Assembly: GCA_013360585.1 (NCBI GenBank)
Contig: JABWBH010000013.1
Span: forward strand, 1-64,000
Length of the DNA: 64,000 bases
DNA from: Phycisphaerae bacterium
Lineage (GTDB): Bacteria > Planctomycetota > Phycisphaerae > UBA1845
Reading direction: 5' to 3'
Shown: positions 5,682-19,763 of the stretch, piece after piece
Position numbering within the stretch: position 1 is the stretch's first letter
Layout: every line of letters begins with the position of its first letter
The notes under the pieces: generated by a model
Databases searched by the model: none
What the model was told of the DNA's origin: nothing
Seen by the model: the letters and a program-made list of their open reading frames with translations, nothing else
Translations under genes and position numbers: made by a program

Positions 5682-5890
5682 CTTCGGGATCCGAGCAACG
5701 CACAAAACCGCGCATCCGCCTCCGGACCGCCCGCGCCACGCCGCGCGAAGCAGGCAAAAAGCAGTGCGTCGGGAGCGTCATAACAGCATAGGAAGGGGTG
5801 TCAACGGATTCAAATTCCGGTAGATTGCCGCCGGGCGTTGCGGCGGGGGTCGCCGCGGCGCCAGCGGCGCGAGGCGGGCGGATCGGATTC

Positions 5891-8812
5891 ATGAGGACGT
5901 ATGTTACCGTGATCGTGCGCGCGAGAGAGCCGCGGTTCGACGCGACGGCCGCCGCACTGCTTTCCGACGTCCGCGCCCTGGGGCTGCCGCACATCCGCGA
6001 GATTCAGATCGACCGGATGTACTTCATCAAGGGCGAGGTTTCGCCCGAGACGGTGAAAGCGCTGGCGGCGGCGCAGATCGTCGACCCGGTGACGGAGACG
6101 TTCGAGGTCGTCGAAGGGTTGGATCGCCGCGCCGCCGGGGCGCCGGCAATCGAAGTACATTATCTGCCGGGCGTGATGGACCCCGCCGCCTTGACCACCC
6201 TGCGGACGTTGCGGCGGGCGTTGGCGCAGGTGGGCGCGGATCCGCGAGCGATCGACGACGTTCGCACAGGCCGGCGCCATGTGATCGTCGGCGCACAATC
6301 CCGCGGCGAACTTGAGGTCGTCGCCCGCCGGCTGCTCGCCAACGACTGCATCGAGCGGGTGTACCTTGCCGGTTTCGCCCCTGAGGACCGGCTTCCCGAC
6401 CGCTTTCCGGAGCCGCCGCAGTACCGGTTCGAGCTGCGCCGCGTCGCGCTGCGGAGCCTGGACGACGCCGGGCTGATGAAGCTGTCGCGGGAGGGACATC
6501 TTTTTCTTTCCCTGGACGAGATGCGCGCCGTTCAGGCGCATTACGCCGGACTTAAGCGCGACCCGACGGACCTGGAGCTGGAGACGCTGGCGCAAACGTG
6601 GTCGGAGCATTGCGTCCACAAGACGCTGAAGAGCGCGGTCGAATATGAAGGCGAGGATTTCGGCCGGCCGGGCCGGGTGCGCGTCCGCTTCGAGAATCTC
6701 CTTAAGGACACGATCGTCCGCGCGACGCGCGAGGCGCGGCGGGACTGGTGTCTGTCCGTTTTTGTGGACAACGCCGGCGTCATTGCGTTCGACGACGACT
6801 ACGGCGTGGCCTTCAAGGTGGAGACGCACAATCACCCGTCGGCGATCGAGCCTTACGGCGGGGCAGCGACGGGCGTTGGCGGGTGCATCCGGGACATCCT
6901 CGGGTGCGGACTCGGCGCGAAGCCGATCGCGTCGACCGACGTCTTCTGCCTGGCGCCGCCGGACACTCCCGCGGATCGCCTGCCGACGGGCGTGTTGCAT
7001 CCTCGGCGCGTGCTCAAGGGCGTGGTCGCCGGCGTCCGCGATTACGGGAACCGGATGGGCATCCCGACCGTGAACGGCGCGATTTATTTCGACCCGCGCT
7101 ATCTGGCCAACCCGCTGGTGTTCTGCGGGTGCGTCGGGTTGATCCCGCGCAACCGGATCGAGAAGGCGGCGCGGCGCGGGGACATGATCGTCGTCGCGGG
7201 GGGACGCACCGGGCGCGACGGGATACATGGCGCGACGTTCTCCTCGGCGGAGCTGGAATCGACGCACGTGGACGAGTTCTCGCACGCGGTGCAGATCGGC
7301 AACGCGGTCGAGGAGAAGAAGGTTCTCGATGCCCTGCTGCGGGCGCGTGACGCCGACGGCGGCTGCCTGTATTCCGCCGTGACGGACTGCGGCGCGGGCG
7401 GGCTGAGCAGCGCCGTCGGCGAGATGGGCGCCGAACTGGGGGCGGAGGTCGATCTCGAAAAGGTTCCGCTGAAATACTCGGGATTGCGTTACGACGAGAT
7501 CTGGATTTCCGAGGCCCAGGAGAGGATGGTTTTCGCCGTCCCGCCGTCTGCGCTCGATCGCTTTCTAGCCGTGTTTGCGGAGGAGGAGGTCGAGGCGGCG
7601 GTGATCGGGCGCTTCACGGGGGACGGACGGTTGCGGGTGCGCTACCGGGGCGAAGTCGTCGGCGATCTCGACGTGCATTTTCTTCACGAGGGTCTGCCGC
7701 GAAGCACGCGCCGAGCGACGTGGACCGCGCCGCCCGCATCGGTTGTCCCGCACGCGCCTCACGTAGGGCGGGCTACGCCCGCCGCCGATCCCGGCTCCGA
7801 GCCGGGCGACCGGCATGACGGCGCACACACGCGCCTGCTCGACGAACTTCGCTCGCTGAACGTTGCGTCGAAGGAGTGGGTCATCCGCCAGTACGACCAC
7901 GAGGTTCAGGGGCGCAGCGTCATCAAGCCGCTTTGCGGACCGGCGTCGGGTCCGTCGGACGCGGCGGTGCTGCGCCCGCGGCTGGACTCGATGCGCGGCG
8001 TCGCGCTGGGTTGCGGTTTGTGTCCGCAGGTTTCGGACCGCGATCCGTACTGGATGGCGGTGCTGGCGGTGGACGAGGCGCTGCGCAACGTGATCTGCGT
8101 CGGCGCCGACCCGGAACACACGGCGATTCTGGACAATTTCTGTTTTCCGAAGTGCGACAACGAGCCGACGCTCGGCGCGCTGGTCCGGACCTGTCGCGGC
8201 GCCGCGGATGCCGCGATCGCTTACCGACTTCCTTTCATTTCCGGGAAGGACTCTCTGAGCAACGAGTTTTCGATGCCCCCGGCCGAGGCCGCCCGGCTGG
8301 GCCTGCCGCAACGGCTGGCGATCCCGCCGACGTTGCTGGTCAGCGCGATCAGCGTGATCGACGATGTGCGCCGGTGCGTCACGATGGATCTGAAAACGCC
8401 GGGAAACGTCGTCGTTGCGGCATCCGCGCCGGTGGAGACCGCAGGCTTTGAGGCGGCGATCGCGTTGCACCGGAAGGTTGCGGCGTTGATCCGATTTGGG
8501 AAAGTCCGGTCGGCGCACGATGTCAGCGACGGCGGGCTGCTCGTCGCGCTGGCGGAGATGTGCATCGCGTCGAATCTCGGCTTAAGCGTCGATCTTTCCG
8601 GCGACCCCTGGCGGGCGATGCTCTGGGAGCCGGCGCCGACGACGTACGTTCTTGAAATGAACGAGGCGGACGCGAGAAGCGCCGGACTGCCCGTCGTGGG
8701 CCGTGTTACCGCCGATGCGGTTCTGGCGGCGACGCTTGGCGCCGGGAAACAGATCACATGGTCCGTGGCGGCCTTGGCGCAAGCCTGGCGCAAGGCGTTG
8801 TCACCGGGCTGA
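5891..8812 (+). CDS. purL: Phosphoribosylformylglycinamidine synthase, PurL with N-terminal PurS-like domains
   Basis: 973 residues from ATG 5891; GTG 5798 would add 31 low-complexity residues and its ribosome site is too close. It catalyses the ATP-dependent conversion of FGAR and glutamine-derived ammonia to FGAM in purine synthesis. Residues 1-~85 and ~95-175 are two PurS-like modules (VKALAAAQIVDPVTETFEV; then YLPGVMDPAALTTLR). The AIRS-like core follows with the hallmark FKVETHNHPSAIEPYGGAAT and later FISGKDSLSNEF. No glutaminase (PurQ) domain is present, so a separate PurQ is required. Around residues 620-645 a linker (PHVGRATPAADPGSEPGD) is encoded by two palindromes at 7767-7806, apparently a repeat insertion. 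Confidence 0.95.
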   Translation: MRTYVTVIVRAREPRFDATAAALLSDVRALGLPHIREIQIDRMYFIKGEVSPETVKALAAAQIVDPVTETFEVVEGLDRRAAGAPAIEVHYLPGVMDPAALTTLRTLRRALAQVGADPRAIDDVRTGRRHVIVGAQSRGELEVVARRLLANDCIERVYLAGFAPEDRLPDRFPEPPQYRFELRRVALRSLDDAGLMKLSREGHLFLSLDEMRAVQAHYAGLKRDPTDLELETLAQTWSEHCVHKTLKSAVEYEGEDFGRPGRVRVRFENLLKDTIVRATREARRDWCLSVFVDNAGVIAFDDDYGVAFKVETHNHPSAIEPYGGAATGVGGCIRDILGCGLGAKPIASTDVFCLAPPDTPADRLPTGVLHPRRVLKGVVAGVRDYGNRMGIPTVNGAIYFDPRYLANPLVFCGCVGLIPRNRIEKAARRGDMIVVAGGRTGRDGIHGATFSSAELESTHVDEFSHAVQIGNAVEEKKVLDALLRARDADGGCLYSAVTDCGAGGLSSAVGEMGAELGAEVDLEKVPLKYSGLRYDEIWISEAQERMVFAVPPSALDRFLAVFAEEEVEAAVIGRFTGDGRLRVRYRGEVVGDLDVHFLHEGLPRSTRRATWTAPPASVVPHAPHVGRATPAADPGSEPGDRHDGAHTRLLDELRSLNVASKEWVIRQYDHEVQGRSVIKPLCGPASGPSDAAVLRPRLDSMRGVALGCGLCPQVSDRDPYWMAVLAVDEALRNVICVGADPEHTAILDNFCFPKCDNEPTLGALVRTCRGAADAAIAYRLPFISGKDSLSNEFSMPPAEAARLGLPQRLAIPPTLLVSAISVIDDVRRCVTMDLKTPGNVVVAASAPVETAGFEAAIALHRKVAALIRFGKVRSAHDVSDGGLLVALAEMCIASNLGLSVDLSGDPWRAMLWEPAPTTYVLEMNEADARSAGLPVVGRVTADAVLAATLGAGKQITWSVAALAQAWRKALSPG
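7767..7806. repeat. Two adjacent palindromes inside purL
   Basis: The first has 7-bp arms GGCGGGC/GCCCGCC with a three-base loop (7767-7783); the second has 8-bp arms CCCGGCTC/GAGCCGGG with a one-base centre (7790-7806). Both lie in frame and encode a Pro/Gly/Asp-rich linker that the PurL family does not need. A close relative of the second palindrome core (CGGCTCCGAGCCG) recurs in the intergenic region at ~15531. Confidence 0.75.
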
Positions 8813-9574
8813 CTTCCGAGGCGGCGCGGGTGGGCTTGCGTCATCTCCCCGATTCTTCCGTCCCTCCGGGACTTCGTTTTCTCCGCGCGGGCTTCCCAGC
8901 CCTGGCGGGCTGGGCTTTTGTCTAACGCCCCTGCCGGGGCTGAGACGCTCGGATGATCCTCCGGGGCTGAGACTTGCGGATGATCCTCCGAGGCTCAGAC
9001 CGCCGGATGATTTTCCGAGGCACAACACCTCCCGTCGCTCCCTCGCCGCAGGATTGCGCCATATCGTAAGTTCATGCGATTCCACCCCCCCCAACCGGAG
9101 CCAGAGGGAGACTCAGGGCGGGCGTTGTGAACGCTCGCTTGAACTCCTCTTCTGCGTGCTCTGCGCCCTCTGCGGATCATCCAGCCTTCGGGGGCGCGCG
9201 CTCGCTTGCCCGGCCACGTGGTGCGGTCGAATCTTGCGGCGGACTCCGACCCGGTGGACTCCAATGCAAGGCCCGGAGCGGGGTTCAACCTTGCGCCGTG
9301 AGGTGTACGGCGCTGCCTCTGGTTGACCTCCAGAGCGGTGGATCCGATGCACCTTGCAGGCGATCAGCGCCAAAGGGTTCCGGTCGAGGGTGTCGTGGAG
9401 AGGCGGATACCACGCCCCCGATCGGGCCCGGTGCGCGCGCCCGGTCCGCTCCCTTTTCCGGTTTCTCCTCGCCCGTACAATGAGCCCCGCCGTCCGTCAC
9501 AAGCGATATCGTCGGCGATGTGCGACCGGTAACCTCGCACGCGCCCGGGCAGTTCCGTCGAGAAAGGTGGATCG
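8813..9574. other. 762-bp intergenic region dominated by repeats
   Basis: No credible gene. It contains copy A of a ~270-bp multi-hairpin repeat (8841-9116), then a short CTCTGCG-type tandem ladder (~9143-9176), then ~390 bp of unassigned sequence up to the next gene. A weak -10-like TACAAT at ~9475-9480 precedes the membrane-protein gene at 9575. Frames across the repeat are Pro/Ser/Gly-rich and recur in copy B, as expected of translated repeat rather than of a protein. Confidence 0.7.
8841..9116. repeat. Multi-hairpin dispersed repeat, copy A
   Basis: Aligns end to end with 19498-19763. Shared landmarks in order: GATTCTTCCGTCCCTCCGGG; a stem CCCAGCCC/GGGCTGGG around loop TGGC; GCCGGGGCT; three 27-bp iterons beginning GGATGAT; then ATCGTAAGTTCATGCGA and CCAACCGGAG, ending in GAGACTCAG. 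In copy B the second stem reads CCCAGCAC/GTGCTGGG, a compensatory C:G to A:T pair change around the same loop, which argues for a conserved folded structure. The element lies directly after purL. Confidence 0.88.
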
Positions 9575-16751: not shown

Positions 16752-16852
16752 AATCCGCGCAGTTTTCGTTGACGACACCGGACTGTCAAGAAAGGGTTAT
16801 CCTACGATTCCGGGGGTTGGGCGAACGAAAGTTCAAACGTCAGGAGTACTCG

Positions 16853-19348
16853 ATGGCGCCAGGCATGCTTGTTCGGTTCGTAGTCGCTTTGATTCAGGTT
16901 GAATCATCACCGTCTTCGCTTCCCTCCTTCGACTGGGTTACCACCGGTCTGGACTGCGAGTTCTTCGCCGGGGGCGACCTCGACGGCGACGGGTTCGCCG
17001 ATGTGGTCACGATCAGCGGACGGGACAAGCTGTGCGTGTCGTTGAGCCTGAACGGGTGGAAGGCGACGCCGTGGCAGGTGGCGACGGATCGGGTCAAGGC
17101 TGACGGAGCGCTGCGGCTGGAGGTCGCGGACGCGGATCCGTCGATCCCCGGTGTCGAGGTCGTGCTCGTCATGTCCGATCAGCGCGTCGTCTTCGGCGGG
17201 TGGAAGGACGGAAAGTTCGCCGAGGAAAAGCGGGTCGAGGGGAATGTCGGATGGGGGAATTCGGATGGGGGATCGAATTCGGCGACGGAGGCGGCGGATC
17301 CGAAATCCGGCGTCGCGCGGGCTGAAGCTCGCGGCTCGGCGCCGCCGTATGAACCCGAGGCGGCCGTACATGCCTCGTTCACCGCGGACTTCAACGGCGA
17401 CGGAGTCGCGGACACCGCGACCGTTTACACCTGCACCCGGCCTCACGTGCATCGCGTCGTTCGCGTCACGCTGAGACCGAATCCGAAATCTGACGACCAG
17501 GACGGCGACGGCCTGACCGGCGAGGAGGAGAAGTCGCTCGGGACGGATCCGCTCAACCGCGACACCGACGGCGACGGACTGCTCGACGGCTGGGAGGTGC
17601 GGGGTCTGCCGCGCGGCGTCGCGGGACCGGAGACGCCGCTGAACCCGCGTCGGCAGGACGTCATCGTCGTCATCGCCCCTTATGAAGGCCTCGACATGCA
17701 GGCCGCCCGCGTCAGCCTCGAGGACGCAAAGCGCCTCTACCGGGCCATCCCTTCGACGAACCCGGACGGCAGCCGCGGCATCGACCTGCACTACCGCTTC
17801 GATCCGCCGGTTTCCGCCGAGCATCAGGGGCACTGGGCGGACGTGGGGGCGAAGTTCTTCGACGTGAAGCAGCGCGGGATCATGCACTGGATGCTCGTCA
17901 CGGGCTTGGGCGGCGGCGGGCAGTCGTCTCAGCTCGGCGACCTCGGCTGCGCAGGGGCCAACTGGGCGGCATTCGCACATGAACTGGGTCATCAGCTCGC
18001 CCTGGGGCACACCGGCGACTCCGCTCCGCCGTGGTGCCCGCTGTATCCGTCGCTGATGAACTACGCGTTCAATTACAGTCTCGGCGGCGACGGCAGCCGC
18101 GTGCAGTTCTCGCCGGGCAAGTTCCGCGAGGTCGTGCTGAGCGAGTCCGCGCTTTCCGAGCGCCTGCCCTTCGCGTACGACAACCTCAAGTATCTCGAAG
18201 CGGATCCCTTCTACTTCACGCTCAAAGCCGACGGCGCCGGCGCGACGCTCATCGACTGGAACCACAACGGGCGCTTCGACGAGGGTCCGGTCTCCGCGGA
18301 TATCAATTACGGAAGCTCGACGCATTGCGGCGAGCGCGTCCGGCTGGACCTGATCGGTTCCGGACCGGCGCTCGCCCGCGTGGGCGACGCGCTTCACCTG
18401 GCGTTTCTGACGCAGGATCAGGGCGAGATCCGCCTGCGGACGTATCTCGGGAATGCGCAGTGGAGCGAACCTCGGACCGCCCCCAACGCCAGCTCCAACT
18501 TCGATCCGCTTCTCGTCGGTACGAAAGACGTGGGGTATCTGCTGTTCCGCCGGCCTGACGGCTGGTGGATCGCGCGCTTCGACGCGACGACGATCGACGA
18601 GCCGCGCCGGCTGGACGCGCTTCCCGCCGCCGAGCTTTCGGCTGGTACGGTGAAGGACCGCGTGCTGCTGGTCGCCCGGCGCGAGGACGACGGCTTGACG
18701 GCGTGGTGGCTGAAGGCGCCGCGCGACACCGCCGGGGCGGTGTCGTACGCGCTGGCGCCCGGACCGGCGATCGACTTCAAGTCGGTAGTGCCGGTGGACT
18801 GGTCGGTGGACCCGCGCGACGGGCGCGTCGTCGTCGTCGGAGCGGCGTCGCCGGAGCCGGACCGCCCGATGATGTGGATGCGGGCGGCGTGGTTTGAAGT
18901 CGAGTCGGAGTCAAGCTGGCGGCGCGTCGAGCAGCGCTGGATCGGCGGCGATCAGGGCGGCGTCACCTGCTCGACGCGACCGGTTGTGCGACATACGGAC
19001 GCGGGAGAGCTGGTCATCTTTCACACCGGGTTTCCGCACGCCAACGGCTGGATGCTGATGTACCGCACGAAGCAGATCGAGAACCGGGCGTTGCGCGACG
19101 GGTGGCTGGTGACGATGTTGTACGACGTCTGGACGCTGACGCGGCGGCCGATCGCGTTCGAGCTGTCGCCGCAGGGCGCGGTCTTCGCCTTTCGCTGGGA
19201 CGCCGGAAAGCACGCTTACGACGTTAATCATCTGCTGGCGTGCCACAACGGACTGGGCCTCGACCCTGAACCGATGCGCGACTTCGACGACGGCGCGCTC
19301 ATCAGTCTCTGGGGCATCCGTCACTCGATCCTCTACATGCAGCCCTAA
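16853..19348 (+). CDS. Large secreted metzincin-like metalloprotease with FG-GAP-like and calcium-binding repeats
   Basis: 831 residues from ATG 16853, with CAGGAG seven bases upstream. The N-terminus (MAPGMLVRFVVALIQVESSP) is a poor but possible signal. FG-GAP/VCBS-like repeats (FFAGGDLDGDGFADVVTISG; FTADFNGDGVADTA) are followed by Asp-rich thrombospondin type 3-like calcium motifs (DDQDGDGLTGEEEKSLGTDP, then DTDGDGLLDGWE). At residues ~375-390 HELGHQLALGH gives an HExxH with a third His at metzincin spacing, and YPSLMNYAFNYSL resembles a Met-turn. The last ~350 residues repeat beta-propeller-like strands. An in-frame insert (~132-164) coincides with a palindromic repeat at 17313. Target unknown; likely extracellular or surface. 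Confidence 0.8.
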   Translation: MAPGMLVRFVVALIQVESSPSSLPSFDWVTTGLDCEFFAGGDLDGDGFADVVTISGRDKLCVSLSLNGWKATPWQVATDRVKADGALRLEVADADPSIPGVEVVLVMSDQRVVFGGWKDGKFAEEKRVEGNVGWGNSDGGSNSATEAADPKSGVARAEARGSAPPYEPEAAVHASFTADFNGDGVADTATVYTCTRPHVHRVVRVTLRPNPKSDDQDGDGLTGEEEKSLGTDPLNRDTDGDGLLDGWEVRGLPRGVAGPETPLNPRRQDVIVVIAPYEGLDMQAARVSLEDAKRLYRAIPSTNPDGSRGIDLHYRFDPPVSAEHQGHWADVGAKFFDVKQRGIMHWMLVTGLGGGGQSSQLGDLGCAGANWAAFAHELGHQLALGHTGDSAPPWCPLYPSLMNYAFNYSLGGDGSRVQFSPGKFREVVLSESALSERLPFAYDNLKYLEADPFYFTLKADGAGATLIDWNHNGRFDEGPVSADINYGSSTHCGERVRLDLIGSGPALARVGDALHLAFLTQDQGEIRLRTYLGNAQWSEPRTAPNASSNFDPLLVGTKDVGYLLFRRPDGWWIARFDATTIDEPRRLDALPAAELSAGTVKDRVLLVARREDDGLTAWWLKAPRDTAGAVSYALAPGPAIDFKSVVPVDWSVDPRDGRVVVVGAASPEPDRPMMWMRAAWFEVESESSWRRVEQRWIGGDQGGVTCSTRPVVRHTDAGELVIFHTGFPHANGWMLMYRTKQIENRALRDGWLVTMLYDVWTLTRRPIAFELSPQGAVFAFRWDAGKHAYDVNHLLACHNGLGLDPEPMRDFDDGALISLWGIRHSILYMQP
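17313..17339. repeat. 27-bp palindrome, copy inside the metalloprotease gene
   Basis: It matches 19390-19416 over 27 bases with one substitution (GAAGCTCGCGG against GAAGCCCGCGG). It is flanked upstream by a short imperfect tandem tract (GGATGGGGGAATTC-like). In frame it contributes to the linker ARAEARGSAPP. Confidence 0.75.
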
Positions 19349-19497: not shown

Positions 19498-19763
19498 TCA
19501 TCTGTCCGATTCTTCCGTCCCTCCGGGACTTCGTTTTCCCCGCGCGGGGTTCCCCAGCACTGGCGTGCTGGGCTGGTTTCTGACGCTCCTGCCGGGGCTA
19601 GGACTTCGGAATGATCTTCCGGAGCCGGGACTGTCGGATGATCTTCCGGGGCCAAGACAGTCGGATGATCCTCCGGGGCACAGGAAATCCCGTCGATTCC
19701 CGGGCATGATCGTAAGTTCATGCGAATTCGAAACCCGCCAACCGGAGTCAAGCGGAGACTCAG
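19498..19763. repeat. Multi-hairpin dispersed repeat, copy B
   Basis: Second copy of the element at 8841-9116, same orientation. It keeps GATTCTTCCGTCCCTCCGGG, the stem around TGGC (here CCCAGCAC/GTGCTGGG), GCCGGGGCT, three iterons of ~27 bp and the tail ATCGTAAGTTCATGCGA. Differences between copies are spread out and include one compensatory stem change. It lies between the metalloprotease gene and dprA. Confidence 0.88.

Follow-up and report, generated by a model that had tools for sequence, protein, structure and literature searches.

The two copies of a repeat found in a 64,000-nucleotide stretch of DNA from a Phycisphaerae bacterium (hereafter, the window) are very probably REP-type DNA elements, a non-autonomous version of the ends found on both sides of a TnpA-Y1 subclass 1.2 transposase gene, with the Rfam family RF01687 (Acido-Lenti-1) representing their H1-H2 part. 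Acido-Lenti-1, which has been listed as a probable small RNA since 2010, most likely represents part of a mobile DNA element. This assignment pairs two orphans: an Rfam family that has gone without an assigned function since 2010, and a transposase subclass listed as REP-less.

A preliminary description, made from the sequence alone, had claimed an end-to-end alignment of the two stretches. Indeed, 8841-9116 (276 bp) aligned with 19498-19763 (266 bp) at 78% identity (BLAST against the own genome, E = 1.8e-55). The finer points of that description held as well. The 20-mer GATTCTTCCGTCCCTCCGGG, expected by chance 0.01 times in the window when up to three mismatches are allowed, is present in both copies with 0 mismatches. 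The H1 stem around the loop TGGC has one pair changed from C:G to A:T on both sides (CCCAGCCC/GGGCTGGG in copy 1, CCCAGCAC/GTGCTGGG at 19553-19572 in copy 2), the copies share a tail, and each lies after the 3' end of a plus-strand gene. Copy 1 starts 28 bp past the stop codon of purL (FGAM synthase, 5798-8812, plus strand), and copy 2 starts ~150 bp past the stop codon of an ORF at 16769-19348 (plus strand), with a dprA-like gene downstream. Comparison with copies in congeners suggests that the true start of copy 1 may lie ~10 bp before 8841. The features of the two copies are as follows:

8841..9116, plus strand: copy 1 of the repeat element, comprising H0, H1, linker, H2, a 27-bp tandem array and a conserved tail (alignment and BLAST)
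8860..8872, plus strand: copy 1 hairpin H0, GTCCC-TCC-GGGAC (sequence and stem scoring; equivalent position in REPtron ends)
8895..8941, plus strand: copy 1 RF01687 Acido-Lenti-1 core, H1 + linker + H2 (Rfam, 40.0 bits, gathering score 37)
8895..8914, plus strand: copy 1 hairpin H1, CCCAGCCC-TGGC-GGGCTGGG, the site of the compensatory change, with the tetranucleotide foot on the reverse-strand 5' side
8927..8940, plus strand: copy 1 hairpin H2, GCCCC-TGCC-GGGGC
8934..9021, plus strand: copy 1 27-bp tandem array, CCGAGGCTGAGACCGCCGGATGATCCT, 3.3 copies, overlapping the 3' side of H2
9063..9116, plus strand: copy 1 conserved tail, ATCGTAAGTTCATGCG...AACCGGAGCC...GGAGACTCAG (alignment; also present in the copies of congeners G001 and G003)
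19498..19763, plus strand: copy 2 of the repeat element (alignment and BLAST)
19517..19529, plus strand: copy 2 hairpin H0 (sequence and alignment)
19553..19599, plus strand: copy 2 RF01687 core, with H1 at 19553-19572 and H2 at 19585-19598 (Rfam, 37.8 bits)
19709..19763, plus strand: copy 2 conserved tail (alignment)

The window copies are single units with a tandem array, without an inverted dimer. A 27-bp array of the GGATGATCCTCCGGGG type follows H2 in the copies of this genus (in the window, at 8934-9021 and at the corresponding positions of copy 2); its length differs from copy to copy, and it may have arisen by expansion of H2 on its 3' side.

The preliminary description had called for a search of all copies in the genome and its relatives. 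In the host genome (G000, 4.24 Mb, 97% complete), ~48 places matched the 276-bp element by BLAST, and the congeners G001, G003, and G002 had 40, 51, and 0 matches, respectively. The RF01687 model gave 30 matches in the host genome vs. 0 in 14 control genomes. There was also a third stem class (CCCAGCGATAAATCGCTGGG...), inverted beside the main class and arranged alike at two places (G000:C68:46433-46552 and G000:C77:145957-146086). Elsewhere, G096 carries inverted dimers, H2'-H1'-H0'-H0-H1-H2, from which the gene is missing, a REPIN layout. Two further genomes, G073 (41 RF01687 matches) and G127, have many strong copies, and a Y1 transposase of the subclass 1.2 type was not detected in them; these copies are possibly orphan repeat populations.

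From the double change in H1, it had been argued that selection acts on the fold. Two changed positions alone are insufficient for this claim; the many further copies strongly support it. Among 29 copies from relatives, 377 of 377 cells were paired, and 10 of the 13 pairs had changes on both sides. The 23 distinct copies of the own genome had 98.3% of cells paired with 18 double-change cells, and 127 distinct copies from many genomes had 99.6% paired with 260 double-change cells, a count reached by 0 of 500 shuffles. In the covariance alignments, 46-nt and 47-nt copies were kept apart (A3 and A4). The percentages of paired cells are biased since the alignments come from searches that favor pairing; the number of compensatory changes is hard to explain in this way. 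Folded as DNA, the whole 160-nt left part was only modestly better than its shuffles (z = -2.0); the evidence for a fold rests in the individual hairpins.

Covariation alone cannot separate RNA hairpins from those of single-stranded DNA. Upon inspection of the pairs themselves, G-U accounted for 5 of 1651 cells (0.3%) in the 127 copies vs. 15 of 223 (6.7%) in the stems of ten tRNAs from the same loci, although some bias is left in the low figure because the covariance search penalizes G-U. Pairing at the level of DNA is expected to give such a pattern.

The host genome has two Y1_Tnp genes. In one of them (the C57 gene, L069:1486-1938, 150 aa), an RF01687 match at L069:1377-1423 precedes the start codon by ~60 bp on the opposite strand, and an H2-type hairpin closely follows the gene on the gene's strand. 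The host genome has its own inverted flanking of a Y1 transposase, as in a REPtron. The second (C77) was dropped as a partner: it lies in frame inside alaS, is associated with another repeat family, and gave no match to our covariance model R1. At this locus (L070, G000:C77:148001-151228), the Y1 domain (~590-2000) is part of a single 1450-aa open frame, with copies of another palindromic repeat (AGCCGCGACCGTGAGGGAGCG...) in frame on both sides. Congeners likewise have long open frames that include a Y1 domain, at G002:C26:113253 (1291 aa), G003:C2:211044 (1561 aa), and G003:C11:46863 (1326 aa).

We assayed this linkage more widely by searching R1 over 80 regions around the Y1_Tnp genes of relatives, at a threshold of at least 35 bits. 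Within 250 bp upstream there were 30 matches, 27 of them on the opposite strand; within 250 bp downstream there were 26, of which 24 were on the same strand. The density was 1.3-1.5 per kb within 250 bp vs. 0.01-0.03 per kb beyond 2 kb, and 29 of the 80 regions had a near match (permutation mean 6, maximum 14, 2000 trials). No nearby match of at least 30 bits was seen in 43 of the 80 regions, 34 of these around subclass 1.2 genes.

A second set comprised 80 named loci identified solely by the transposase protein alignment, in Acidobacteria, Verrucomicrobia, Planctomycetes, Lentisphaerae, Bacteroidetes, Nitrospirae, deltaproteobacteria, Calditrichaceae, and Zixiibacteriota; a few, such as L263 and L167, come from genomes of the first set. 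A match lay within 500 bp in 48 loci and on both sides in 34 (permutation mean 11, maximum 22). Upstream matches were on the opposite strand in 43 of 50 cases and downstream matches on the same strand, also in 43 of 50, with a density of ~2.5 per kb within ~250 bp vs. 0.01 per kb at 2-5 kb. Rfam's own RF01687 model, at its gathering score, agreed with R1 on these loci. The remaining 32 had no match of at least 35 bits nearby; many loci without a match show an analogous three-hairpin end by eye. At L199, L207, L222, and L184, where subclass 1.2 genes have no R1 match, H1 is longer (TCCACGGGT...ACCCGTGG), the foot is GTAG, and the H0-H1-H2 order is kept, suggesting that the system is wider than RF01687.

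Third, among 195 genomes of the phylum, 42 had both the transposase (52 genomes in total) and RF01687 (47 in total), 10 had the transposase alone, 5 had RF01687 alone, and 138 had neither (Fisher p = 1.9e-27, a value that overstates independence because the genomes are related). In this draw of genomes, the Rfam matches were mostly 70-90 bp from the gene on each side.

These results bear on what the element is. The preliminary description had offered three options: a non-autonomous mobile element, a structured 3' RNA, or a protein-binding array. The first is picked out by the hairpins, which in many phyla lie inverted on both sides of a Y1 HUH transposase gene, and the third applies in part, the proposed binder being the transposase. 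For the second, Rfam does file the core as RNA (type 'Gene; sRNA'), and Weinberg et al., 2010 (PMC2864571) graded Acido-Lenti-1 as probably an RNA; the copies that lie downstream of genes and the strongly conserved pairing also fit a true small RNA or a structured 3' UTR, with the closeness to a transposase being secondary (for example, through regulation of the transposase mRNA or joint spread with it). Yet G-U pairs are almost absent, and bracketing on both sides, in opposite orientation and at near-equal distances, has the look of transposon ends, unlike a regulatory RNA. Tens of copies per genome and inverted dimers without a gene also argue against this explanation, which we regard as improbable. 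Watson-Crick-only pairing and the linkage to a transposase favor DNA. The near-absence of G-U together with inverted flanking of a HUH gene offers a simple discriminator between the two kinds of hairpin.

It is still less probable that the hairpins are mainly transcription terminators or stabilizers of mRNA 3' ends that have been duplicated. H1 followed by CTTTTGTCTA resembles an intrinsic terminator, and this unit and H0 with TTCGTTTT score as terminator-like, which lends partial support, as does the position of both window copies after the 3' end of a gene. However, in most copies H1 is followed by a linker other than a T run (CTATTnTCT, CTACTATCT), and a terminator has no need for H0, for H2, or for inverted placement around one transposase subclass. 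An additional, secondary role of the element as an RNA or a terminator is possible.

The linkage is specific for one kind of transposase. All 37 flanked proteins (match of at least 30 bits within 500 bp) have the subclass 1.2 signature Y---Q--HH or a near variant, and none of nine IS200-type proteins was flanked. On the protein tree the flanked state is clustered, with 25 changes vs. 52 when shuffled (0 of 500 shuffles). The partners carry the features of subclass 1.2 (Y---Q--HH, DHxH, WQ, ~150 aa); the host protein has DHVH and YIMRQEEHH, but WL replaces WQ. Its predicted structure (pLDDT 89) matches the ISDra2 and IS608 transposases as well as a REP-associated transposase bound to a REP hairpin (PDB 4er8), and a sequence match was also obtained. 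The 2018 survey that named subclass 1.2 (BMC Genomics, PMC6006769) lists it as 'REP: no', generally without terminal structures, and mainly in Cyanobacteria and Bacteroidetes. Since membership rests on the sequence signature, the 48 flanked loci out of 80 contradict this published description rather than the membership of these proteins.

The ends have a common architecture. Outward from the gene, a transposase end consists of H0 (the gene-nearest hairpin), a spacer, H1, the linker CTATTnTCT, and H2, an order that the window copies share. Of 110 copies at the named loci, 105 carry NTAG directly 5' of H1 on the reverse strand. The third linker base is G, giving a CAG-type foot, in 22 of 23 host-genome copies, including those beside the host's own transposase; it is A (TAG foot) in 28 of 29 copies from relatives. 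The single subclass 1.2 gene of the host is flanked by the stem variant CCCACGGC/GCCGC, not by the window-type CCCAGCCC. Despite this difference in the stem, the CAG-type foot is common to dispersed and transposase-adjacent copies, hence the C57 gene is the likely partner of the dispersed host copies.

Next, we compared the two window sites with the congeners. At purL, the element is present in the host and absent in G001 and G003, which have another sequence of ~200 bp there; the G001 PurL protein is 95% identical over the C-terminal 273 residues. At dprA, the element is also absent in G001 and G003, and the neighbors are rearranged. The comparison supports turnover of the element, and no clean insertion was seen. 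From these patterns we infer mobility. At the two sites, comparison with G001, G002, and G003 gave neither a clean empty site nor, with the flanking sequence replaced or rearranged, a readable target-site duplication. The amplified copies in G096, G023, and G043 clearly show inverted dimers, and an insertion target could not be read from their ends. Imperfect terminal inverted repeats surround some G023 copies, as might be expected if the copies derived, as ends or relics, from a conventional IS or MITE that a different transposase (e.g. of the DDE type) had moved. Such an origin is very unlikely: the linkage is specific to subclass 1.2 HUH transposases and holds across phyla, and no target-site duplication was seen at the two window sites.

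We therefore return to REP-type ends of a subclass 1.2 transposase, for which the following mechanism may be proposed. The element consists of three successive hairpins (H0, H1 and, after the linker, H2) and satellite sequence, and the layout that includes the gene is H2'-H1'-H0'-gene-H0-H1-H2, with a small Y1-family HUH transposase of ~150 aa. The transposase would recognize H1, and perhaps H2, as single-stranded DNA via the NTAG-type foot on the reverse strand, would cut and join at the hairpin with its tyrosine, and would have spread the elements. The copies in the host genome would have been mobilized in trans, or might be relics. The compensatory stem changes would follow from the requirement that the DNA hairpin stay Watson-Crick paired.

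A REP combined with a HUH transposase is an arrangement of an already known kind. Like the GTAG REPs, REPtrons, and REPINs with their RAYT/TnpA-REP proteins (PMC2817692, PMC3116915, PMC3733652), the present elements have a hairpin with a 5' tetranucleotide foot (here NTAG, on the reverse strand of H1), a high copy number, a Y1 HUH transposase flanked in inversion, and inverted dimers. They differ in that the transposase belongs to class 1, subclass 1.2, rather than to class 2 RAYT, in that there is a conserved H2 beyond the foot and an H0 between H1 and the gene, and in that the foot is only partly GTAG. The TIRYT/TIRtrons (Di Nocera, 2013, PMC3733652) are a near precedent: these RAYT-like genes lie between inverted repeats of a kind other than GTAG REPs, some of them multicopy and some in Acidobacteria. 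By contrast, their shared motif is GGGGWSAS, there is no link to RF01687, and the double-hairpin family was not defined there; some TIRYT loci may be elements of the kind described here. The transposase fold and the HUH/Y1 catalytic plan are those of IS200/IS605 (IS608, ISDra2), whereas transposition of a whole element is not evidenced here, there being one to few transposase copies against tens of repeats (one subclass 1.2 gene vs. 48 repeats in the host genome). Relative to the TnpA-Y1 subclass 1.2 survey (PMC6006769), the signature is alike, with repeats flanking most of the named set and many more phyla represented.

Acido-Lenti-1 itself was first reported by Weinberg et al., 2010. The H1-linker-H2 cores of both window copies exceed the gathering score of its model (40.0 and 37.8 vs. 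37 bits). Rfam describes RF01687 as an sRNA gene of Acidobacteria and Lentisphaerae; here it is a dispersed DNA repeat tied to a transposase, found in many phyla and with an extra hairpin, H0. In the open-access literature, we found neither a prior link between RF01687 or Acido-Lenti and transposases nor a REP for subclass 1.2. A 2026 study (PMC13298647) read Acido-Lenti-1 matches downstream of Tannerella protease genes as possible regulators; these may be REP insertions.

Lastly, we put at about even the chances that subclass 1.2 transposases and their double- or triple-hairpin Acido-Lenti-1 ends constitute a REPtron system of their own, which crosses phyla and is mechanistically distinct from TnpA-REP and the GTAG REPs in that recognition involves an NTAG foot with a hairpin on each side, and the foot and the transposase co-evolve (as with the CAG foot in this genus). 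If so, one 'RNA' family would leave the RNA world and the REP-less subclass would gain a substrate. Through the match between foot and transposase, REP recognition becomes testable in lineages far from Escherichia coli.
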